27,480 nt of DNA from IMG/VR virus record IMGVR_UViG_3300025809_000100, positions 1-27,480 of that record. The stretch is one strand, 5' to 3'. Positions 1 to 27,480 of the stretch are shown piece by piece; within the stretch, counting starts at the first letter, position 1, and each line of letters opens with the position of its first letter. The stretch comes from a virus. Both the position numbers and the translations under genes were made by a program. The notes under the pieces are model-generated. The model saw nothing but the letters and a program-made list of their open reading frames with translations. It made no database searches and was not told where the DNA came from.

Positions 1-156
1 GATGCTTGAATACCATCCCCACTTTTTTCCAAATCCTGCTGAAATTGTGGTTGTTTCTCCATTTCCTCCTGTAAATAATTGCTCGTAACGTTCAGTAACT
101 CCAAGCCTAAACTTTGAAAAAAAAAAAGAGAACCAAGAACTGCATCTAATTTTATC
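1..156. repeat. Terminal direct repeat, left copy (circular overlap)
   Basis: These bases recur at 27326-27480. The only difference seen is the A run: 11 A at 117-127 here and 10 A at 27442-27451 in the right copy. The tail assembly chaperone gene reads continuously when position 1 is joined to 27325, so this is best explained as overlapping ends of a circular assembly rather than a functional repeat. A short physical terminal repeat cannot be excluded from sequence alone. Confidence 0.93.
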
Positions 157-599
157 TGCTTCATTATCTCTTTTGTGTCAATGTCATATTCTGCAATAGA
201 ATACTTACCTGCTGCCTTGTTTGTTATCGGACGATACAACACATTCATTGCCCTATGTAAATCTTGTTCTGATGGTAAAAAAGAATCTAAATCAATGTAT
301 TCACCAAAAGAAATTTCTTGTAAATTTGGAATAAATCCATACTCTACACCACCCATTTTAAAAGTAGTTACAAGTTCGGGTTTTTCTTGAAAGGTTTTTG
401 TCAGTACTTCGATGATCTTTTCAACATCTGAAAATTTGATGTTTCTGCAATCTTTATAATCAACATTACAAAAGATTTCAATCATCTTTAGCTGAAGAAC
501 ATATTCATCTTCTTTGTTAATCTCTTGAACTTTCAAAAATCTTTGATATTGTTCTAGGGTAATTTCAGATAGACTCGGTACAGTTACACTTGCTTTCAT
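1..599 (-). CDS. Tail assembly chaperone (gpG-like), 5' part; continues at 27325
   Basis: The frame starts at the ATG at 599 and runs off the window at base 1. Joined to 27325 it ends with TAG at 27268, giving 218 aa in all. The N-terminal 160 residues match the pattern of Bacteroidetes phage tail assembly proteins: start MKASVTVPSLSEITLEQYQ, then KMGGVEYGFIPN and ISFGEYIDLD, then VLYRPITNK and LGSLFFF. Residues 158-161 are coded by CTT TTT TTT TTT over an 11-base T run (plus-strand A run 117-127), a perfect T_TTT_TTT slippery heptamer. A -1 slip there enters the frame that ends at 27185 and gives a 246-aa G-T fusion, as in lambda gpG/gpGT. Tail chaperones of this type coat the tape measure protein during tail assembly. 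The gene follows the terminator at 637-666 and has the late CGTTATAT motif four bases before its ATG. The family call is from memory of homologues; the frame geometry is seen directly. Confidence 0.82.
   Translation of the reverse strand, partial: MKASVTVPSLSEITLEQYQRFLKVQEINKEDEYVLQLKMIEIFCNVDYKDCRNIKFSDVEKIIEVLTKTFQEKPELVTTFKMGGVEYGFIPNLQEISFGEYIDLDSFLPSEQDLHRAMNVLYRPITNKAAGKYSIAEYDIDTKEIMKQIKLDAVLGSLFFFQSLGLELLNVTSNYLQEEMEKQPQFQQDLEKSGDGIQA
117..128 (-). promoter_or_regulatory. Slippery T run for programmed -1 frameshift
   Basis: On the minus strand the zero frame reads CTT TTT TTT TTT CAA. Eleven consecutive T give a canonical X_XXY_YYZ site made only of T. Slipping back one base at the last TTT makes the next codons TCA AAG TTT AGG, which stay open for 85 codons to the TGA at 27185. 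The right-end copy of the repeat has only ten T in this run. Polymerase slippage on the same homopolymer would have the same effect as ribosomal frameshifting. Confidence 0.72.
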
Positions 600-1381: not shown

Positions 1382-2593
1382 TTATCTAACATGATATTTT
1401 CCCCTATTTGGGTTTTGTAATTGATAGGTAACCGAGTACCTAAGTGCATCAAGAAGGTGATTGTGGGAATCTTGTGGAGTTTTTGATTTACGTTCTAGCC
1501 AACAATAGTTATTCAATTCTTTAATCAGATTAACCGAATCTTCAGATACTATTAAATCATAATCTTGAATCAAGGATATTCCATAGGTAATTGAACCTTG
1601 CCCCTTGACAGATGCAACTATTTTACTTCCCTTAGATTTTAGTTCATTTATTAATCTAGGCTCTGCACTATCCCCTATTATTAAAGCATCACCTGCGTGT
1701 TTTAAATTCAGTTCAGCAATCTGTGATGTAGTTAGGTGTTTGATATAAAAACATTCCCTTAGATAGATGATTTTATTTGTTGTGTCAATATTGGTTTCAA
1801 TTAGCGTAGATTCATCTGATGCAAATCCATAATCTTGTCCAAACACAGAAACCCCTACCTTTTTAAATTCTCCTATTTTCCAATTATCGAAAATTACACC
1901 TTCGGCTTTATCTAACCATCCCCCAAGGATTTGATGCTTGTATTTATTTGGGCGTCTTACCCTAATATTGTCTATTTGTGATAGGTAGCTTTCTGAAAGG
2001 TTTTGAATGTTGTCTAAGTAGGTTGTGTGGATGTATGTCACATCTTCTTTACTTGTGTTTAAACCCTCTTGCATTCCTTTGTCTTGAAAGAACCTTTGGT
2101 AAATCCAGTGTTCTTTTGTGGTTGGGTTTAAGATTAAGATAATTCTATTGGTTTGCGTTTGCGATCTAACCGATAAATCTATTTTATCAAATGTGTCTTC
2201 ATTGGTTAATTCTTCAGCCTCATCCAATACAAAGGTTGTAACACCTTGTAGTGATTTAAGATTTGCAGTTTGATCACCCGATGATGTTTTTATTCCTTTG
2301 AAGATAATCTTGCTGCCGGATATTTTGTTTTGAATCTCATCCTTTGTGATTTGGAAATGATCAAAGATATTCAGCAGTTCTAGTTTTTCGATAAACTCCG
2401 GAATTATAGAAACATAAGCAGATGTTAAGGTGTATCTACTGAAAAGGATAACGTGTCCTTTCTCATAAGTTAAAAGGCACAACATCAGATTAATGGAAAA
2501 GGATTTACCGCTACCTCTTCCACCTGTTACAATAAAGTATCTAGAATCTGCTTTTGATATTGGTGAATATTTGGGGTTAACCTTAATCACCAA
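1382..2593 (-). CDS. terL: Terminase large subunit
   Basis: This 403-aa protein is the ATP-driven DNA packaging motor and headful/site nuclease. The N-terminal ATPase domain has Walker A GGRGSGKS at residues 24-31 and Walker B VLDEAEE at 123-129. The C-terminal RNase H-like nuclease has the expected acidic residues: D255 in FGQDYGF, D309 in IIGDSAEP and D383 in HNHLLDALRY. The length is normal for the short PBSX/Terminase_3 type. The ATG at 2593 overlaps the end of the small subunit gene by 11 bases. Unusually, the terminase pair sits at the end of the early/replication block and is separated by the whole tail block from the portal and capsid genes. Confidence 0.95.
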   Translation of the reverse strand: MVIKVNPKYSPISKADSRYFIVTGGRGSGKSFSINLMLCLLTYEKGHVILFSRYTLTSAYVSIIPEFIEKLELLNIFDHFQITKDEIQNKISGSKIIFKGIKTSSGDQTANLKSLQGVTTFVLDEAEELTNEDTFDKIDLSVRSQTQTNRIILILNPTTKEHWIYQRFFQDKGMQEGLNTSKEDVTYIHTTYLDNIQNLSESYLSQIDNIRVRRPNKYKHQILGGWLDKAEGVIFDNWKIGEFKKVGVSVFGQDYGFASDESTLIETNIDTTNKIIYLRECFYIKHLTTSQIAELNLKHAGDALIIGDSAEPRLINELKSKGSKIVASVKGQGSITYGISLIQDYDLIVSEDSVNLIKELNNYCWLERKSKTPQDSHNHLLDALRYSVTYQLQNPNRGKYHVR

Positions 2594-6263: not shown

Positions 6264-6406
6264 CTTTTAATTCCGTTTACCTTATTTAGTTTTTTTCTTC
6301 TTTCATCACATCCGCAATCTTTGCCAGTGTATTTACTGTACCAATCCACCAAGGCTTTTATACCTGTGTATTTGGTTATGTAATAAATTAAATCTCCCAA
6401 TTTCAT
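6257..6406 (-). CDS. Small hypothetical protein (49 aa)
   Basis: The frame runs from the ATG at 6406 to TAA at 6257 and reads MKLGDLIYYITKYTGIKALV with a DCGCDERR motif (C31, C33). Proteins with this LGDxIxxITKxTGIK...DCGCDxR pattern are frequent in Bacteroidetes phages, from memory. The start overlaps the sigma-like gene stop as ATGA. The function is unknown. Confidence 0.7.
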   Translation of the reverse strand: MKLGDLIYYITKYTGIKALVDWYSKYTGKDCGCDERRKKLNKVNGIKRW

Positions 6407-6882
6407 AGTAAATGTTTTAGTTTGTTTTTAACCTTTTTGTAAGTGTTGTAAAGTGAGTAATAGGATATGTTTGTTTGCCGGGATAACTCAGAAATAGATT
6501 TACCTCCATCTATTATTTCGTAAACTTTTCGATCATACCAAAATAAAGTGTTTATTTCTTCAGTGACTGCTTCATAAGCATCTTCATAATTGATGTCTAA
6601 TTCACAATTTTCAATTTCTCCTAGTTCGACTATTTGAACTTTTGATTCTTTTCTTTTCAAGTCTAAAAAAAGCGATCTAAGCACTTTAAAAATATAGTAG
6701 TAGTTTATATCATCTTCACTGTATTGAATGTCTGTCCCTTTCTCTAATCGTTTCTGAACCTTAAAATACATCTCTTGAACTATGTCTTGTGATGTGTCAC
6801 GATTACAACCAAAGGATTTGACTATATCAATCCATTGATCATTCTTTTCAAATATTTTTTCAAGTGCCTTTGAGGGGATCAT
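6403..6882 (-). CDS. Sigma-70-like transcription factor
   Basis: The product is 159 aa, the length of an ECF-type sigma factor. Residues about 30-45 (TSQDIVQEMYFKVQKR) look like sigma region 2, which binds the RNA polymerase clamp and the -10 box. The C terminus (residues 126-159, KSISELSRQTNISYYSLYNT) is a helix-turn-helix like region 4.2. It lies in the early block right after the RecA-like ATPase, overlapping it by 23 bases. It could direct late transcription; the CGTTATAT element before four late units is the natural candidate target, but that link is inference. Alternatively it is a sigma-derived regulator that does not initiate transcription. Confidence 0.76.
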   Translation of the reverse strand: MIPSKALEKIFEKNDQWIDIVKSFGCNRDTSQDIVQEMYFKVQKRLEKGTDIQYSEDDINYYYIFKVLRSLFLDLKRKESKVQIVELGEIENCELDINYEDAYEAVTEEINTLFWYDRKVYEIIDGGKSISELSRQTNISYYSLYNTYKKVKNKLKHLL

Positions 6883-10246: not shown

Positions 10247-10534
10247 TTATTTTTTAAATACTCTTTGTTCTAAATCTTCAATTCTTTTGTCTGTTTGTGA
10301 TTCAAACTTTTCAAATTCTCTGATTAAAAAATCTAACTTTTGATTAACTACCCTAGTGTCATCTTGTGATACTATTGGTTTAGGCAGTGTTTTAGCAATT
10401 TCAATTTCACTCTTTAACATTGCGTATGATAGTGTTAATGAAACTACCATACCAACCGCCATTATTAGGGTTTTAAAATCAACTTGAAAATCCGGTTTTT
10501 TGTCTCCGTCCACATCTACATTTAATTGTGTCAT
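10247..10534 (-). CDS. Membrane protein with coiled coil, holin/spanin-like (95 aa)
   Basis: A polar N terminus (VDVDGDKKPDFQVDF) precedes one membrane helix (about 22-40, TLIMAVGMVVSLTLSYAML). A C-terminal coiled coil (about 65-95, QKLDFLIREFEKFESQTDKR) follows. This layout fits a holin or an inner-membrane lysis accessory. Its ATG overlaps the stop of the 44-aa gene (ATGA), and the endolysin is just upstream, so the three form a lysis cassette. Confidence 0.6.
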   Translation of the reverse strand: MTQLNVDVDGDKKPDFQVDFKTLIMAVGMVVSLTLSYAMLKSEIEIAKTLPKPIVSQDDTRVVNQKLDFLIREFEKFESQTDKRIEDLEQRVFKK

Positions 10535-10665
10535 TTTTTATCTTTGAATTTTTGATAACAAATAGCAATGGCTTGATCTTTCTTGTACTCCCCCATTAAC
10601 TGGGGAATACATCGAACCATAAAATCCTTCTGCTTTTCGTTTTTATTTGGTTTAGGTATTGGCAT
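10531..10665 (-). CDS. Small protein of lysis cassette (44 aa)
   Basis: The frame runs from the ATG at 10665 to TGA at 10531. It begins MPIPKPNKNEKQKDFMVRCI and has an AIAICYQKF motif with C19 and C37. Short proteins of the pattern PxPKxxExxxxFVxRC...AVCYxxW are common next to phage lysis or head genes, from memory. It overlaps the endolysin end by 14 bases and the next gene by ATGA. Confidence 0.7.
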   Translation of the reverse strand: MPIPKPNKNEKQKDFMVRCIPQLMGEYKKDQAIAICYQKFKDKK

Positions 10666-11167
10666 TAGAATATCTTGTTTTTCCTCTGTGATTTGTTGCT
10701 TTTAGTTTTTGGTTTCTATTCTCTTTTTCGCTCAAGAAAGAAATATGAATCCAATTCGGTTCTTCATTTGTTCCAAATTCCCAAATCAACTGATCAAAAT
10801 TAAGATTTTCAGATGCCCAATTAAATAAATCAGCGTTTGACTTCTCTCCTAGTGTGTCTAAATCTAAAGCCTGTCCAAATGCGTGTTGGCTTGTTTTAGA
10901 GCCTCCTACGGCTTTATTTAATTCTTCTGATCTGTACATACTATTTATACGAATAGGATGCCCACACCAATCCCTAAGTGGCTGAAATAGCTTCTCAGCA
11001 GTAACTAGCATATTCTCATAATGTTCCTCGGTTGGCTCATTACTAATTCCCAGTTTAACGGCAGTACTAGAAAAAATTCCTTCTTTGTAACTTAGGTTTT
11101 TACTTAGTTTCTTCTTCCGTAATTTCGGTGTACTCTCCTGTTTCAAGGTTGATGTTAATTTTGCCAT
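10652..11167 (-). CDS. Endolysin, peptidase M15 type
   Basis: The product is 171 aa. Zinc peptidase M15 features: RINSMYRSEELNKAVGGS (73-90), SQHAFGQALDLD (93-104) with H95 and D102 as metal ligands, and WIHIS (139-143) with H141 as the third ligand. These enzymes cut peptide cross-links in peptidoglycan. No signal peptide is seen, so export would need a holin; two membrane proteins follow. The start at 11167 lies 68 bases inside the preceding gene. The first 20 or so residues could be a shadow, but no later ATG, GTG or TTG precedes the domain, so I keep it. Confidence 0.88.
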   Translation of the reverse strand: MAKLTSTLKQESTPKLRKKKLSKNLSYKEGIFSSTAVKLGISNEPTEEHYENMLVTAEKLFQPLRDWCGHPIRINSMYRSEELNKAVGGSKTSQHAFGQALDLDTLGEKSNADLFNWASENLNFDQLIWEFGTNEEPNWIHISFLSEKENRNQKLKATNHRGKTRYSNANT

Positions 11168-11685: not shown

Positions 11686-13725
11686 TTACCCTTCTAGTGT
11701 TTCAATTCTTGCTTTTAAATCTTCTATGATGGTTTGTTGTTCTTGAATTGCTTTGGTTAAATGTGGAATTATAAAATCCATTTTAATTGCTAACATTTCA
11801 TTTTCCTCTTGGTAAACGCTTACCGCTTCGGGAATTACTTCTTTAACCTCTTGAGCAATAAATCCAAATTCATTTTTAAACCCATCTATAAAATCAAATT
11901 TTCTAGGTTGAAGAGCCAAAACCTTATTTAATCCATCATCTAAATTAATAATATTTTCTTTTAATCTTCTATCTGATCCACTCCAAGAAGATGAAGAAAA
12001 CAAGTAGCCATCTCCTCTTACATAAAGATATTGAGTATTACTTGTGCTTTGAACGCTCATAGTATAATCAGATGAAGATGTTCCCGCTTTCACTAATAAG
12101 CCATAAGATTGACTAGTTGTAGTTCCTCCTCTACAATTTAAACCCCACTCGTTATCTTTTCCCTCTATTAGTACGCTCTTACTAAAAGTAGCATCACCCC
12201 CCGATGAGATGGTGAGTCCATTACCACTAACTAAACTTGCACCCGTTCTAATACGAAAACTATCATCTGTTTGTCTATATCCCATCATGAATTTAGCAGT
12301 AGAACCGTGATAATATTCCGTATAACCCCATCCCGAAGTTCCCGCATTAAAGCGTATACCCGCATTTTGAAAATTATTGCCAATCTCCATACCGTAACCC
12401 GACTGAGAAACTGTTGGCGAATTAGTTCCAATACCCACATTACCCCCCGATGAGATAGTGAGGGGAACAACAGAACCTTGTCTTATTCGAAAGGCATTAC
12501 TAGTCGCTAAATCTAAAGAGGTTAAAGCGCTACTTTGTCCAAAAGTAAATGAACCGCTATCATTTCCAAAACTTGCAATATCTGAACTTGCTCCCGAAAG
12601 AACTTGTAATTTTCTTGTAGGCGTACCACTAGTTCCAATACCCACATTACCCCCCGATGAGATGGTGAGATGTGGGTTATTATTTGTTTTGAATGTAATA
12701 GTAGAATCATCTAAATCTATGACGGCGCTTGTCACTCCGTCTCGCTGTCCAATAACTAAGCCATTGCCCGATACTTGATTCTCTATGTATCCGTGTAAAG
12801 TTGTACCATCCGCAGCATAAAATAATATATTGCCTGCCCCCGTACCCCTAATTAATTTAATAGAGTTTTGAACGCCCGTAAGAAATTGAAAAGCTGCATC
12901 TCCTTTTATAGTGTTTGAATTAGTCCATATTGCTACCTCATTAGTACTTGGTGTTCCACTTATACTTACATCACCACCCGCAGCATCTATAAATGAATAT
13001 GTTCCATTAGCATTTGTAGACAAAACTTGTCCACTAACTATTCCATCAGATACTACTGAAATAGCACTTGTACCATTACCTACTAAAATACCCGTTAATG
13101 TAGTTGCTCCCGTACCTCCATTGGCAACCCCTAAAGTACCACCTATAGCAATAGTTCCATTTGTGGTTATTGGTGAACCCGTAACAGTTAATCCCGTTGG
13201 AACACTTAACGCTACTGATGTAACAGTTCCTGCGGTTGATACTTGATTATCTACATATTCAGTAGTAGCAACCTTTGTGGAGTTATCACTAGCCGTTTGT
13301 GTAGTCGCTACTGATCCATCGGGAAGGACAACACCTGCGGTTGGAAAGGATAAAGTAATTGCTTGGCTTGATGCGCTTGTTACTATTTCATTTGCCGTAC
13401 CTGTAAAGGCTAATGTTTGACTGTCTAAAGTAACTGAGCCTGTGCCTGTACCACCCGAAAAATCTAATGTGTTTGAAAGGCTATCATTTTCCCAAGTCAA
13501 AACACCTGCTCCATCAGTTTTTAAAACTTGCCCATCTAAACCATCTGTATTCGGAAAAGCGTATTCTCCATAAAACTGAATTGAATCAGTTGAAAGATAT
13601 AATGGTGATGTGTTTCCCCTACCATCCGTTATCTGAGTGAGTGATGCGCTTAATACTCCACTACTTGAGGTTTTGAGTAAACCCGAATATGTTGCGGATA
13701 TTTGTTGATTAAATAAATCAGCCAT
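11686..13725 (-). CDS. Tail fibre/spike with S74 intramolecular chaperone
   Basis: The product is 679 aa. The C-terminal 96 residues (from 584, SDRRLKENIINLDDGLNKVL, then GFIAQEVKEVIPEAV and a final coiled coil) form a Peptidase_S74 chaperone domain. These domains trimerise fibres and cut themselves off before a Ser, here likely in GSDRR. The body is a low-complexity Ser/Thr/Gly/Asn beta region with TISSGGNVGIGT repeats at about 355-435 and TVTSVALSVPTGLTVTGS-like segments, typical of receptor-binding fibres. It follows the head genes and precedes the lysis cassette. Confidence 0.9.
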   Translation of the reverse strand: MADLFNQQISATYSGLLKTSSSGVLSASLTQITDGRGNTSPLYLSTDSIQFYGEYAFPNTDGLDGQVLKTDGAGVLTWENDSLSNTLDFSGGTGTGSVTLDSQTLAFTGTANEIVTSASSQAITLSFPTAGVVLPDGSVATTQTASDNSTKVATTEYVDNQVSTAGTVTSVALSVPTGLTVTGSPITTNGTIAIGGTLGVANGGTGATTLTGILVGNGTSAISVVSDGIVSGQVLSTNANGTYSFIDAAGGDVSISGTPSTNEVAIWTNSNTIKGDAAFQFLTGVQNSIKLIRGTGAGNILFYAADGTTLHGYIENQVSGNGLVIGQRDGVTSAVIDLDDSTITFKTNNNPHLTISSGGNVGIGTSGTPTRKLQVLSGASSDIASFGNDSGSFTFGQSSALTSLDLATSNAFRIRQGSVVPLTISSGGNVGIGTNSPTVSQSGYGMEIGNNFQNAGIRFNAGTSGWGYTEYYHGSTAKFMMGYRQTDDSFRIRTGASLVSGNGLTISSGGDATFSKSVLIEGKDNEWGLNCRGGTTTSQSYGLLVKAGTSSSDYTMSVQSTSNTQYLYVRGDGYLFSSSSWSGSDRRLKENIINLDDGLNKVLALQPRKFDFIDGFKNEFGFIAQEVKEVIPEAVSVYQEENEMLAIKMDFIIPHLTKAIQEQQTIIEDLKARIETLEG
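12196..12216. repeat. Fibre repeat, partial third copy
   Basis: It matches the last 21 bases of the repeats at 12424-12462 and 12631-12669. It encodes the TISSGG motif in the fibre. Confidence 0.7.
12424..12462. repeat. Fibre direct repeat, copy A (39 bp)
   Basis: It matches 12631-12669 with one mismatch. On the minus strand it encodes LTISSGGNVGIGT in the fibre body. Confidence 0.85.
12631..12669. repeat. Fibre direct repeat, copy B (39 bp)
   Basis: It matches 12424-12462 with one mismatch. Homologous recombination between the copies would delete or add about 207 bases (69 codons) in frame. Confidence 0.85.
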
Positions 13726-14304: not shown

Positions 14305-16281
14305 TTATTTCTTTTTAGTTGGATATGCACCTTGATTTGGCATATTTACTGGAGCAATTTGTGCCTCTTTCCATCCCCTTGGAGAAGGTTTGTAACTCTT
14401 AGGTATTGTTGTTGCTCTTTTGTATTTGTCAAAATCATCAGTTTTCTCTGTGTTCTTTTTAAGCCTATATAGCTGCTCTTTCCAAGCGTGTCGACAATAG
14501 ATACCACCTTTGAATTTAAAGAGGTTATAAGGCTTCCCTTTGTGTCCTAGTCGCTTGTTTACACCTTTGTCTGATGCTTTGTCAATGTCTTCAATTCTGT
14601 AAATGATTCCTTGCCCTGCTAACTTCATCATATTTGAGCAAAACAATCTAGATTCATTTCCGCTTTTCATTGCCTTCTTAGATTTCTTAAAATACTTGTA
14701 TCGTATTTTGTAAAGGTTTTTATCTAAGACAGAAAACACTTTTGGCTTACCTGTAATTTGATCTGCAAACTTTTGAAGTTTTGATTTACTTGGTTGAATT
14801 AATTGAGTTGCCCACTCTTCAAGATTCTCACCTTCATATTCTCTTTCATCTACTAGTTCCCATTCATCTGTGATAACCTCACCTTCCAATTCAGCAAGTA
14901 TCTCATCACCCATTTCATCAGTTAGTTCGGGAATTTCTTCACTTGCTTTATCGTGTGTCTCACAAGCCATAAACCATTCTTTGTCACCTTCCATGTGGGT
15001 GTGATATCCTTCACATCCTAATTTTTCTGCTTCTGCAATGGCTTCTTCTTTAGTCTCAAATACAGTTTGCCCATCAATCTCTTTTAAACTAATCTTTGAC
15101 ATCTGCACACCTGTTTCTTCTTCAATGTCTTCTTGGCTTTGTATTGTTGTGTCAACCTCTGTAAATTCTAATGGTTGCAAAGTCACAAAATAAAGATTTA
15201 AAGCAATGTCATTGTAGGCTAGTATTTGATCAAATGAATCAATTAAAAGTTCTTGAAACGGACGTATTACTGTGTTGTCCATCAATAAACTTGCAGTCTT
15301 TATTTCTTCAGCGTTATTGCCTAAACCCGAATTATCTTTTATTCCTAATAACATAGGTGAAACAACCCTATGCGCTACCATTATTTTTTGTGTAGCCTCT
15401 GTGGAAAGGAATTGATACTGATTGTGTGCATCGCTTAACTGAACAGGAGTAATGTCTGCTTTTGATTCTGCATTATCATTGAATGCAAGGATGAATTTAC
15501 CTGCGTTTGATGTCCCACTAAACTTAGATGCAATTTTGTTTTCTAATAATTGCCTTTCTTCTTGATTAGGTGTGCCGTTATTAAAGTTAATGAGCATGGA
15601 AGGTGCTAACCCATTCATTATATTATTAATGTGATAGTTAGAAATCTCTTCTTCTAACTCACAATATTGCAAACCACCTTGATAATCTACTGGCGAATAA
15701 TAATAGAAACCTGCTTTGTATGGTTTAATATATAAAATCTCAATATCCTCTTTTGACATCCCAAATGCCGGGATTCTTAAAGGTGTATCACTTGGTTTTA
15801 TGTTTGTCCAATCCTTAAAATAATAATAAGCAGAAACTTCACCTTCTTCATTTGCCTTTTCTGCCCTTAAAGTTTCTATTGGAAAGTGTTCTACTTTGAC
15901 AATCTTCTTTCTGTCTTTAGAATAGATTATTTGAGCAGCACATTGTCCCATTAATTTTAAATCGTAGGACAATTTTCTAACACAATCCTTCCCAAACATT
16001 GAAATCATTTGGGCATATTGATCGGGTTTTTTATTGGCATCTGTTGCGTTTAATCCTTTGCCATAAATTGCTTGGCTTATGCCATTAATAGCAGCGTTGT
16101 TTGTGGCTGATCCATTATATCTATCAATTAAGAATTGAAAGTAATTATTATCAGCACCATATTCTACCCAATCTTTGTTTTTTACCTCTTTTACTTCGGG
16201 TGAAGTGTAGGTGCTTAAATTAACAAACCCAATACTTGGTTGTTTTGTTACACCTTTTGGTAAACTCTTTTGTCTTTTCAT
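14305..16281 (-). CDS. Portal protein with C-terminal extension
   Basis: The product is 658 aa. Residues about 35-375 carry the portal core (DWVEYGADNNYFQFLIDRYN, YGKGLN, KMGQ-like LMGQCAAQIIY, and VAHRVVSPMLLGIKDNSGLG at 302-321). The portal is the 12-fold ring that DNA passes through. Beyond the core there is an insert with a possible zinc site (C423, H427, H429, C440, H443), then an acidic linker and a C-terminal domain (about 515-610) with LFCSNMMKLAGQGIIYRIED and KPYNLFKFKGGIYCRHAWKE. Bacteroidetes phage portals often carry this tail. The start overlaps the previous gene (ATGA). The gene follows capsid and tail tube genes rather than the terminase. Confidence 0.85.
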   Translation of the reverse strand: MKRQKSLPKGVTKQPSIGFVNLSTYTSPEVKEVKNKDWVEYGADNNYFQFLIDRYNGSATNNAAINGISQAIYGKGLNATDANKKPDQYAQMISMFGKDCVRKLSYDLKLMGQCAAQIIYSKDRKKIVKVEHFPIETLRAEKANEEGEVSAYYYFKDWTNIKPSDTPLRIPAFGMSKEDIEILYIKPYKAGFYYYSPVDYQGGLQYCELEEEISNYHINNIMNGLAPSMLINFNNGTPNQEERQLLENKIASKFSGTSNAGKFILAFNDNAESKADITPVQLSDAHNQYQFLSTEATQKIMVAHRVVSPMLLGIKDNSGLGNNAEEIKTASLLMDNTVIRPFQELLIDSFDQILAYNDIALNLYFVTLQPLEFTEVDTTIQSQEDIEEETGVQMSKISLKEIDGQTVFETKEEAIAEAEKLGCEGYHTHMEGDKEWFMACETHDKASEEIPELTDEMGDEILAELEGEVITDEWELVDEREYEGENLEEWATQLIQPSKSKLQKFADQITGKPKVFSVLDKNLYKIRYKYFKKSKKAMKSGNESRLFCSNMMKLAGQGIIYRIEDIDKASDKGVNKRLGHKGKPYNLFKFKGGIYCRHAWKEQLYRLKKNTEKTDDFDKYKRATTIPKSYKPSPRGWKEAQIAPVNMPNQGAYPTKKK

Positions 16282-16845: not shown

Positions 16846-16874
16846 GAAGGTTAAAAAATGTAAAAATAAGACAA
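16846..16874 (-). promoter_or_regulatory. Possible promoter
   Basis: The minus strand has TTG at 16874-16872, an 18-base spacer and TAACCTTC at 16853-16846, close to the host-type pattern. It overlaps the T tract of the terminator just upstream, so transcription could restart here. Confidence 0.4.
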
Positions 16875-16904
16875 AAAAAAAGCACCCCCTAAAAAGAGAT
16901 GCTT
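16873..16904 (-). terminator. Rho-independent terminator after tail tube gene
   Basis: The minus strand has AAGCATCTC and GGGGTGCTT pairing (nine pairs, two G-T) around a short loop, followed by nine T. It lies 22 bases after the stop at 16926. Confidence 0.85.
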
Positions 16905-16925: not shown

Positions 16926-17465
16926 TTAAGGTGTTACTGCAGCCGTAGGATCAATTTTTGTTCCTTGTGTTGCTCCAGTTACTAAAGCAGGTGTGATAAA
17001 TGTAGCAGGATCAACTTCTTGTCCTACCAATGTCATTGTGAAACCACTTAGATCACCGGGTTGAGTGCCAGTGCCAATAGTCCCCCCACTCAATTCCATT
17101 CCATTTTCTAATCCTGCAATGAACATATTTCCATAATAATCTTCAACCGCTACACTAGGACGTCCCCAAGCAATCAATTTGATTTGCTCTTGTGTTGGTG
17201 CATCTAAGTAAGTTAAAGTTAAACTAAGTGTTTGCTCATAGAATGTTGTTCCTGTTTCCCTAGAACTGTTTATGGCAGTTTCTAGTGATGATGTGTTTTT
17301 TACATCATATTCATATACTGTTGGAGTACCTGCTATTGCAGTAATTACACCATCTGTATACGTTAATGCACCAAGTGCATCTAAGTCAAAAAAGTAAGCA
17401 GCCTTTATGCCTCCATATCCTGCCTTACATGGGAGTACTCTTCCCGAAGTTACGTTACAAGCCAT
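16926..17465 (-). CDS. Major tail (tube) protein, probable
   Basis: The product is 179 aa. It starts MACNVTSGRVLPCKAGYGGI and is beta-rich with SLTLTYLDAPTQEQIKLIAW and a final domain with TMTLVGQEVDPATF. Size and beta content fit siphovirus tail tube subunits, and proteins with this start occur next to the capsid gene in flavobacterial phages. It has its own terminators on both sides (17480-17516 and 16873-16904), as expected for an abundant structural protein. A head decoration role is the main alternative. Confidence 0.55.
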   Translation of the reverse strand: MACNVTSGRVLPCKAGYGGIKAAYFFDLDALGALTYTDGVITAIAGTPTVYEYDVKNTSSLETAINSSRETGTTFYEQTLSLTLTYLDAPTQEQIKLIAWGRPSVAVEDYYGNMFIAGLENGMELSGGTIGTGTQPGDLSGFTMTLVGQEVDPATFITPALVTGATQGTKIDPTAAVTP

Positions 17466-17479
17466 ATTTTTTATATTTT

Positions 17480-17516
17480 AAAAAAAAAGGGTAGATAGAC
17501 ATACCCACCTACCCCT
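17480..17516 (-). terminator. Rho-independent terminator after capsid gene
   Basis: The minus strand has GGGTAG and CTACCC closing a 14-base loop region, followed by nine T. It lies 20 bases after the capsid stop at 17537 and ends 15 bases before the next ATG at 17465. Confidence 0.83.
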
Positions 17517-21079: not shown

Positions 21080-22885
21080 TTATAATGTCGCTGATTCTAC
21101 AATGTTCCTATCTAATGCTTGTGCCGTTGTAACATCGTTTGCAACCACATAAGCCTTTACTGGTGCTTGTGATGCAACTACATCAGCAATCTGATTTGCT
21201 CCGCTTGTACCTACTATATTAAACTCCGGTGCTTGTGATTCAAAAGAGTCACCCCTTGTTGACGGTGATGCTATTGTTGCTTCTGATGCAATCGATCCTC
21301 CTTCACCTATTGCAGATAATGCTTTTTTAGAAGATGCTATTGTTGCTGCTATTCCTATTGCTGCATTTGCAGTATTTATAGCCGTAAAAGGAAAGCCTGT
21401 GGGGGGAACTAATGCTGCTGCCTTTGCATTTGCTACTTGAGTACTCATTATTATCTGTCCAATACTTGCTGCTGCTTCTGCTACAATTATTGCTTTTTGA
21501 AGTTTTAAATTTCCTTCGGTTACCCCTTTTAATACACCTAACCCATTTTGCAAAACACCTACTGTTGCCATTGCAATTTCTTTTTTATTAACAAATGCTG
21601 CTAATTCAGCATCTTTTCTTTTTTTCTCTTCAGCAGCCAATTCTTCTGTGTATTCTTTTTCTAAGGTTATGGATTCGTGTCTGCTAGTTTGCATAAATTC
21701 ATCCAAAGCAATTTGTGCATCTACCTTTGCTTGTGTTCCTATGTTAGCATTATCTACTATTGCTTGTAGTCTTTCTGCCTCAACTAGTTTTTCTTCTTCG
21801 TTTATTTCTTTTAATTTCTCAATTCTTTTGACTGCATTTTTTTCTTGTTCAGCATCAAATTTTCTTTTTTCAAAACCTAAATTAGATACAGATTCTGCCT
21901 CAGTGTTTAATAGTTCAATTCGTTCCCTGTCAAGTGCTAAGTCATTTGCTAATTGTTCTGATCTGAAACCTTCAATAGTCGCTTCTACTGCCATCACTTC
22001 ATTCTTAGCAGCAATTAATGCAGTTTCATTTTCTAGGCTTTTATTTCGATTAAATGCTACTTGTGCAGCCTTTTCTACTATCTTGGCATTCTCAAGCATT
22101 TTTGCATTTTGCTCTTCTAATATTCTTCCTAGTTCTACGTTTGCTGCAATTCTGTCTGTAATTGAATTTCTCTCCTCATCCCTAATTTGTCTTTGTTGCT
22201 CTGCTTGTCTATCGTACTTTTCAAGCAAACCGGCATTTATTACTTCCGCTTTTTGTGCCTCTTTTGCAAGTTGAACATTTGCAACTGCTGCATCTTTTAA
22301 TTCAACTGCATATTCTGCTGCATCTGTGGCTGCCTCTACAAAGCCGTCACCAGTTTGTGATATTGCATCACCTAAACCACTAAATCCTTCTTGAGCAGAT
22401 TCCAATGCACCACTAAAATCACCACCGAATATCTTGCTAAATGCATCACCAAATTTTTCAAAGGCTTGTGTGGCAGTTTGTATAGGTTGCCCAAAATATT
22501 TATCGAAAGCATCCCCTAGTTTTTTGACTGACTCTTGCCCACCTATCAACAATCCAAACACATCATTAAAAACCAAAGCCAATCCTTCAAATGATGCACC
22601 TACTGCATCGGCAACGATTTGATTTTGCAGGAATAATTCTTTGATAGTGTCAAGAGCAATAATAAACAAACCTAAACCTGCCGTCTTTATTGATTTTCCA
22701 ATTCCCTTAACACCCTCACCTGTTGATTTAGAAGTTTCTTCAATGCTTTTTAAACCTGCTGCGGTTTGTTCGTTTCCTTGTTCAACTGCCTTGGTTAAAT
22801 TCTTAATTCCACCAGTTAAATCATCAACGTTTTTCTCCGCTTTTTTGGTTTCTACTTCTAATTCTACTTGTACTTGCTCTGCCAT
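21080..22885 (-). CDS. Tail tape measure protein
   Basis: The product is 601 aa. N-terminal helices (QVELEVETKKAEKNVDDLTG) and a hydrophobic segment (about 66-85, IKTAGLGLFIIALDTIKELF) are followed by a very long Ala/Glu/Lys coiled-coil region (about 195-435). A further hydrophobic stretch (about 440-535) contains TVGVLQNGLGVLKGV and ANAAIGIAATIASSKKALSA. This is the usual make-up of tape measure proteins that set tail length and help DNA enter the cell. Using about 1.5 angstrom per residue, the tail would be near 90 nm; that figure is inference. It lies in the tail block and overlaps the 50-aa gene by 22 bases. Confidence 0.84.
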   Translation of the reverse strand: MAEQVQVELEVETKKAEKNVDDLTGGIKNLTKAVEQGNEQTAAGLKSIEETSKSTGEGVKGIGKSIKTAGLGLFIIALDTIKELFLQNQIVADAVGASFEGLALVFNDVFGLLIGGQESVKKLGDAFDKYFGQPIQTATQAFEKFGDAFSKIFGGDFSGALESAQEGFSGLGDAISQTGDGFVEAATDAAEYAVELKDAAVANVQLAKEAQKAEVINAGLLEKYDRQAEQQRQIRDEERNSITDRIAANVELGRILEEQNAKMLENAKIVEKAAQVAFNRNKSLENETALIAAKNEVMAVEATIEGFRSEQLANDLALDRERIELLNTEAESVSNLGFEKRKFDAEQEKNAVKRIEKLKEINEEEKLVEAERLQAIVDNANIGTQAKVDAQIALDEFMQTSRHESITLEKEYTEELAAEEKKRKDAELAAFVNKKEIAMATVGVLQNGLGVLKGVTEGNLKLQKAIIVAEAAASIGQIIMSTQVANAKAAALVPPTGFPFTAINTANAAIGIAATIASSKKALSAIGEGGSIASEATIASPSTRGDSFESQAPEFNIVGTSGANQIADVVASQAPVKAYVVANDVTTAQALDRNIVESATL

Positions 22886-26709: not shown

Positions 26710-27188
26710 CAGCAAATCCAAATGTCGTTGTAAATCGTGATGTTAAAAGTAGCAGTAACACCGGCTAATTCGTTCTCAAACCTTTCTGTGAAAAACTCAA
26801 ACGTAGCATCACCTTGTACTTGATACATATCTTGAAATAAAGTCCCTCCTCGCATTATCTGAATCAACTTGTTACTTACAGACATTTGTGTGTTTAGAAT
26901 GTCTTGTGTGTTATCGTTGCCTCTGAACAAGTCTGTGGTTGGTTCTTTACTTTGATCAACAATATCCATTGAAAGAATAGAAACATTGAAGGTATATGTT
27001 GCACTTCCGTTGTTGTCGCTTTGTGTCACACTGTTAATTAAGATATGTGACAAGGGGAAGATATCCTGTTTTTCGAGATTGATTTTTGATATGTCACCAG
27101 TGGTAACTGTTTTACAATTCTCATCTAAAAGCAATTGATCTTCTAGTGTTTTGGTTACTTGATAAAAACCTCTTATTCCTTGGCTCAT
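26709..27188 (-). CDS. Tail terminator-like protein (159 aa)
   Basis: It starts MSQGIRGFYQVTKTLEDQLL. A central part with LSMDIVDQSKEPTTDLFRGN and the end GVTATFNITIYNDIWIC match the small mixed alpha/beta proteins that precede gp10-like genes in Bacteroidetes phages; these probably cap the tail tube. The ATG overlaps the stop of the T-frame of the chaperone (ATGA). Assignment is by position and pattern. Confidence 0.6.
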   Translation of the reverse strand: MSQGIRGFYQVTKTLEDQLLLDENCKTVTTGDISKINLEKQDIFPLSHILINSVTQSDNNGSATYTFNVSILSMDIVDQSKEPTTDLFRGNDNTQDILNTQMSVSNKLIQIMRGGTLFQDMYQVQGDATFEFFTERFENELAGVTATFNITIYNDIWIC

Positions 27189-27442
27189 CTTCTTTGCTTA
27201 TTTTTTATTTGTTGTGCTTCTGCTTCGTTCTTTTCTTTCATAAATGTTAACATCGTTAAACACTTATCTAGTTCAAGGGAAGTGATACTTTCAAATCTTT
27301 CAATATCTCCTTGAGAGAGTGCATAGATGCTTGAATACCATCCCCACTTTTTTCCAAATCCTGCTGAAATTGTGGTTGTTTCTCCATTTCCTCCTGTAAA
27401 TAATTGCTCGTAACGTTCAGTAACTCCAAGCCTAAACTTTGA
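27185..27442 (-). CDS. T-domain of tail chaperone, -1 frame
   Basis: This open frame is reached from the chaperone gene by a -1 slip at the T run. It begins SKFRLGVTERYEQLFTGGNG and contains KKWGWYSSIYALSQGDIERF and TMLTFMKEKNEAEAQQIKN, a pattern common in Bacteroidetes phages just after the G-like gene. It adds 85 residues and makes a 246-aa GT form with the 1-599 part. An in-frame ATG at 27469 (MQFLVLFFF) exists in this 10-A copy, but it lies inside the G gene. It fully overlaps the 57-codon zero-frame tail. Confidence 0.72.
   Translation of the reverse strand, partial: SKFRLGVTERYEQLFTGGNGETTTISAGFGKKWGWYSSIYALSQGDIERFESITSLELDKCLTMLTFMKEKNEAEAQQIKNKQRR
27268..27441 (-). CDS. Tail chaperone gpG, C-terminal part (zero frame)
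   Basis: This is the continuation of the gene at 1-599: 57 codons from the slippery run to TAG at 27268. It reads QSLGLELLNVTSNYLQEEME and later HSLKEILKDLKVSLPLN. In this right-end copy the A run has 10 rather than 11 bases, so it is out of frame with the start of the same copy. With the 11-A left copy it is in frame. Confidence 0.75.
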   Translation of the reverse strand, partial: QSLGLELLNVTSNYLQEEMEKQPQFQQDLEKSGDGIQASMHSLKEILKDLKVSLPLN

Positions 27443-27480
27443 AAAAAAAAAGAGAACCAAGAACTGCATCTAATTTTATC
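27326..27480. repeat. Terminal direct repeat, right copy
   Basis: It is identical to 1-156 apart from one fewer A in the run at 27442-27451. Confidence 0.93.

Follow-up and report, generated by a model that had tools for sequence, protein, structure and literature searches.

A conserved T run as a probable programmed -1 frameshift site in a phage gene with two overlapping C-terminal frames

We describe a run of T residues in a phage gene that probably serves as a programmed -1 frameshift site, with a short protein (G) and an extended protein (GT) as its predicted products. We give this reading a probability of about 0.85. The first-pass annotation of the DNA had claimed that the T run joins a G-like frame to a T-like frame by a -1 shift, and had stated that the lack of such a frameshift pair in homologues would refute it. 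Sequence comparison strongly supports the claim: the relatives evaluated keep the run and both frames, with one exception for the -1 frame, and constraint on the -1 frame sets in at the run. The finding assigns a likely behaviour to phrog_32199, a large family of phage proteins that carries no name, of which 264 distinct sequences were evaluated.

Results

The gene crosses the ends of the record

The window, that is the whole stretch of DNA that was analysed, equals the whole virus record of 27480 bases. When the ends of the record were compared, bases 1-156 recurred at 27326-27480. Bases 1-126 are identical to 27326-27451, and beyond the run 29 more bases match after skipping one base. The terminal overlap is 156/155 bases long and holds a single indel, which lies inside the homopolymer run. 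The earlier statement that the two copies differ solely at the slippery run was therefore correct. The phage genome is circular or terminally redundant, with a unit of ~27.3 kb.

The gene with the run lies on the minus strand. It starts at the ATG at 597-599, leaves the record at base 1 and resumes at the other end. The ATG at 653 of the mechanically called ORF is positioned upstream of this conserved start. The features of the gene and of the overlap are as follows.

1..156, no strand: left copy of the terminal overlap, from the end comparison
27326..27480, no strand: right copy of the terminal overlap, with the run one base shorter, from the end comparison
1..599, minus strand: first part of the G frame, MKASVTVPS..., continuing over the join; homologous to the P12024L start MKLTIPTS...
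117..127, minus strand: slippery run T11, with the G-frame codons CTT TTT TTT TTT CAA; the same codons are found in six close relatives
27442..27451, minus strand: run with 10 T, where the G frame is broken (163 aa), taken as an end-of-contig error
27268..27451, minus strand: G frame after the run, ...KEILKDLKVSLPLN, with its stop at 27268
27185..27451, minus strand: T frame (-1), from the run to its stop, FFSKFRLGVTERYEQLF...KKWGWYSSIYALSQGD...KNKQRR

The A11 at 117-127 on the plus strand is T11 on the minus strand, and this run contains two in-frame T_TTT_TTT heptamers. Translation with 11 T gave a protein of 218 aa (G), and translation with 12 T, which is equal to a -1 slip on 11, gave 246 aa (GT). 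With 10 T the translation gave 163 aa and ended in FFF-K-V. The translations thus reproduced exactly the 218 and 246 aa that had been claimed for an open G-like frame with 11 T and for a -1 slip into the T frame, and they bore out the claim that the zero frame of the 10-T copy stops soon after the FFF. After the first in-frame heptamer the G frame continues for 58 codons, as counted in the close relative L003, and approximately the first two thirds of the T frame overlap the G frame.

We infer that slippage occurs at this run. Most translation would read through it in the zero frame and yield G, while a minority would slip back one base in the run, or read an mRNA with one extra U, and yield GT. 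The two products would have their first ~160 residues in common and different C-termini. Since the zero frame stays open far past the site, both C-termini would be encoded by the same bases in two frames. In this AT-rich record the presence of A10 is not above chance (3 matches vs 4.16 expected). Judged from the sequences, the features beyond chance are that the run is conserved and that both frames are constrained.

The run is conserved among relatives

We scanned IMG/VR with the G protein and took the best 80 of 597 relatives. Further seeds gave 63 of 63 loci, then the best 80 of 195, the best 80 of 110 and the best 80 of 157, with contigs partly shared, and genome contigs added 6 loci. Among the best 80 of 597 relatives the G frame was open across the run in 79, and the match in the remaining one (L020) is cut by the contig end. 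We observed an uninterrupted T run with an in-frame T_TTT_TTT in 141/141 evaluated loci, out of 148 given. Seven loci were left out: L147 is 5' truncated and its run is outside the range searched, and in six the -1 frame is off the contig (L069, L122, L134, L143, L145 and L150, with runs of 9 or 10). In a second set the same run and heptamer were found in 228/228 evaluated loci of the 240 given, the other 12 having the G frame off the contig.

The two sets share contigs and together amount to 264 distinct sequences after deduplication, drawn from best-match listings. All 264 have the G frame open past the run. Its length is 9 in 198 of them, 10 in 56, 11 in nine and 12 in one. Upstream in the gene, TTC accounts for 404/1384 Phe codons of the same set. 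A scan with only the bases 3' of the run returned 63 matches, mostly on contigs already in the 63-locus set, and at least 9 T preceded the matched bases in 63/63. The slippery site is therefore conserved and in register with a conserved -1 frame, for which L036 is the one exception. L036 alone has a stop of the -1 frame within the overlap; it is a short contig and perhaps carries a sequence error. Three other relatives of the gene (L151, L152 and L153) are on contigs binned as Epsilonproteobacteria, Euryarchaeota and Pseudooceanicola, and are perhaps mis-binned phage contigs.

Isolated phages also carry the pair. The Nonlabens phages P12024L and P12024S (Inhavirus) have a T9 run and the same -1 frame, and the pair comes right after the terminase gene. 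Both their G (29-30% identity over 75% of the query) and their -1 frame are homologous to those described here. In P12024L, whose genome is also our locus L085, G stops 25 codons past the heptamer. The frameshift is unannotated there, and orfs 40 and 41 are given as two hypothetical proteins, which means that in isolated phages annotation misses the frameshift and presents two hypothetical genes. A literature search outside most subscription journals, which included the accessible parts of PMC5009743, PMC3711429, PMC1088944 and PMC10885494, returned no description of a frameshift at this site.

Ribosome or polymerase

The slippage could be made by the ribosome or by the polymerase, and we lean towards the ribosome. 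Ribosomal -1 shifting is the mechanism described for tail genes of such layout in the available part of PMC5009743. The polymerase is the less probable agent, although it deserves serious attention. It would add or drop U's at the run, and ordinary translation would carry the mRNAs with one extra U into the T frame. In agreement with this, the run is never shorter than 9 in the 264 distinct sequences, though a ribosomal heptamer needs 7. The search for RNA structure downstream of the run points the same way: none was found by minimum free energy, with a mean z of 0.03 for 35 sequences against a background of -0.35. In -1 frameshift genes a downstream stem-loop or pseudoknot is often, but not always, present.

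Two further observations concern runs of nine. Among 108 bacterial genomes, a large proportion show evident selection against A/T runs at this length (PMC1088944), and the sole other 9-base A runs in the window, 16873-16881 and 17480-17488, are positioned between ORFs of structural genes. However, the T's that flank the heptamer are mostly implied by the coded residues, so the length of 9 is not clearly selected for itself. We considered a run of at least 9 as proof of transcriptional slippage and dropped it; all 264 sequences have such a run, but with flanks that are mostly residue-implied it is not decisive. The gene family offers a clean test of ribosomal versus transcriptional slippage.

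Both frames are under constraint

Substitutions were counted in 84 close pairs, with each sequence used once and with L036 and four open-ended loci left out. In successive 20-codon bins before the run, changes that are silent in G and replace a residue in the -1 frame occurred at 1.27, 1.06, 0.84 and 0.79 times the neutral rate, and in the bins after the run at 0.26, 0.16 and 0.13 times that rate. The step is not perfectly sharp, since in 10-codon bins the ratio was 0.70 just before the run and 0.35 just after. Gain or loss of -1-frame stops fell from 0.69-1.23 of neutral before the run to 0.12, 0.13 and 0 after it. This step at the run suggests that translation of the -1 frame begins at about the run.

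It is accordingly very improbable that T is a separate gene with an internal start. This is how P12024L_41 is annotated, as an ORF of its own that starts at the G stop. However, the -1-frame constraint starts near the run, upstream of the P12024L_41 start, and the T run is invariant in the evaluated loci, which also argues against T as a separate gene.

Changes that are silent in T and replace a residue in G occurred in the overlap at 0.32 of neutral (95% interval 0.26-0.38), whereas T-silent changes beyond the G stop occurred at 0.75 (0.61-0.88). This difference indicates that G is constrained in the overlap. Upstream of the run the constraint on G is stronger (0.02-0.07 vs 0.32 in the overlap). 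When one frame was reshuffled synonymously, the trials that kept the other frame open made up no more than 3.7% in any of 24 representatives. The reshuffling and the rate counts together point to selection on both the zero-frame and the -1-frame product.

The shorter run at the right end of the record

An assembly or sequencing error is the most likely source of the 10-T copy at the right end. We scanned for the same sequence context with the run length left free and found six records, all with 11 T; these six are the closest among the best 80 of 597 relatives. Because 6/6 near-identical records have 11 T and the gene with 10 T is a truncated G, we read the 10-T copy as an end-of-contig error. 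The first-pass annotation had left two explanations for the difference between the copies, an assembly error or a length variation that changes the ratio of the G and GT forms. The six records speak for the former. The latter found no support, since 10 T stops the zero frame at 163 aa.

A real length polymorphism, be it phase variation or a population variant that switches or tunes the products, is thus hardly credible. Homopolymers do mutate by slippage, and lengths of 9-12 are found among relatives. However, every relative's run length comes with flanking codons that keep G open for at least 16 codons further, and none of the evaluated relatives (sets of 141 and 228 loci that share contigs) has a run that breaks the G frame. 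Moreover, the distance between the end of the odd copy and the contig end is 29 bases, and the gene with this copy would give a 163-aa stump in which G is truncated rather than the ratio tuned. At such a site, a single homopolymer error is enough to ruin the assembled gene unnoticed.

Extent of the double-coded stretch

We rejected GGAAAAAAG (22..30, minus strand, read from 30 to 22) as the actual -1 site, with the T run as mere Phe codons, as next to impossible: both frames are open there in the window and the heptamer looks slippery, but the -1 frame is conserved between the run and GGAAAAAAG and is already constrained in the first 20 codons past the run (0.26 vs 0.79 just upstream).

Counted from the T run as the shift site, the T part is of near constant length in the 264 sequences (80-92 codons), and the G stop lies 16-84 codons past the heptamer. 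The double-coded share of T is consequently 20-91%. In a tree built from 70 representatives, the overlap class changed at least 10 times, compared with 30.4 changes in shuffles, which indicates that the class is inherited, yet that the G stop has moved repeatedly. The tree was rooted at its midpoint and does not give the direction of the stop movement (growth vs shrinkage). A long double-coded stretch with both frames constrained and a moving stop is a natural series for the evolution of overlapping frames.

A more specific picture can be drawn, in which one assembly protein of a widespread phage family has two alternative C-termini encoded by the same bases, with the length of T fixed, the zero-frame C-terminus overprinted to a variable extent (16-84 codons), and the two split by transcriptional slippage on T9-T12 and not by the ribosome. 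Taken as a whole, we regard this picture as unlikely.

Neighbouring genes

The Pfam-recognised terminase, portal, XkdF-like protease and fibre genes are all on the minus strand. Two neighbours help to place the G gene.

1382..2593, minus strand: terminase large subunit (PF04466, E 8e-34), encoded upstream of G in the same orientation
21080..22885, minus strand: putative tail tape measure protein of 601 aa, downstream of the T frame (phrog_1538, E 5e-4; phrog_21537, virion structural, E 9e-13)

The G/GT gene is positioned between these two genes on the same strand, and four ORFs lie in the interval from T to the putative tape measure gene. The tube candidate, recognised by eye only, lies elsewhere (16926-17465).

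The order of the modules on this strand is unusual: terminase, G/GT, four ORFs, the tape measure candidate, the XkdF-like protease, capsid and tube candidates (the tube by eye) and, as the last, the portal. The portal (14305-16281, minus strand, 658 aa; phrog_33693, E 3e-100) has a C-terminal extension, and its residues 408-443 form a DUF3721-like stretch just below the Pfam cut-off (E 5e-6). A large repetitive fibre-like protein (11686-13725, minus strand) carries a C-terminal Peptidase_S74 intramolecular chaperone domain (E 6e-15). By eye, the ORF at 10652-11167 (minus strand) resembles an M15-type D-Ala-D-Ala peptidase, a possible endolysin, and the one at 6403-6882 (minus strand) a sigma-70-type factor of small size. 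In P12024L, an ORF with sigma-70 region 2 precedes the terminase gene by a few genes.

Discussion

Searches for the function of G and T

Pfam, NCBIfam and PHROGs name no function for the gene family. The predicted structure of G is confident (pLDDT 86), and the model of T is weak (pLDDT 71.7). Among solved structures a sequence search gave no convincing match (best E 0.61, a chitinase-like protein), and neither did a fold search with G (best E 1.3 with Foldseek on the PDB, best Z 4.6 with VIA-align). Of the predicted viral structures in BFVD, 35 matched at E 0.001 or better, none of them with a function name. One tail assembly chaperone by name came at rank 44 (E 0.14, prob 0.82), and the matches at ranks 1-43 are unnamed or uncharacterised.

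A 191-aa structural match in BFVD led us to consider Flavobacterium phage 6H as a possible distant relative. The ORF of that length (gp10) has no matching run or clear frame pair. In the same region (L394 9900-10927), a gap of ~300 unannotated bases follows gp10 (10352-10927). It contains an open frame that has no clear join to gp10 and may be either a distant form of the pair or the result of a sequencing error.

Comparison with known systems

Transcriptional slippage on A9/T9 is described for Thermus dnaX and for IS elements in the accessible part of PMC1088944. They resemble the phage gene in that a homopolymer of at least 9 lies in a coding region and, as predicted here, more than one product is made. 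In Thermus dnaX, according to the same partial source, the slip leads to early termination, whereas in the phage gene a second long conserved frame follows the run.

The other comparison is with the G/GT switch of phage lambda and, more broadly, with the -1 frameshift that dsDNA phages conserve in their tail assembly genes. The lambda gene lies between the major tail protein gene and the tape measure gene, and its products are tail assembly chaperones that bind the tape measure and tail tube proteins and are absent from virions. The most probable use of the pair described here, which we hold with some reserve, would be the same as that of gpG and gpGT, namely two forms of a tail assembly chaperone made at a fixed ratio. 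By its layout and its short and extended pair, the phage gene may well work like the lambda switch.

The G/T label of the first-pass annotation fits in one respect, the short and -1-extended pair, but homology with the lambda tail chaperone found no support: hhalign to lambda G and T, the sole members compared, was null, and we detected no sequence similarity between the phage pair and lambda G/T. Other differences are in the site and its surroundings. The slip site is a T run here and GGGAAAG in lambda. Past the slip site G continues for 16-84 codons here, compared with 6 in lambda. Four ORFs separate T from the putative tape measure gene here, and none does so in lambda. What the two systems have in common is one gene for a short protein and its -1 extension (predicted here), a slip site of repeated bases and a position among structural genes on one strand.
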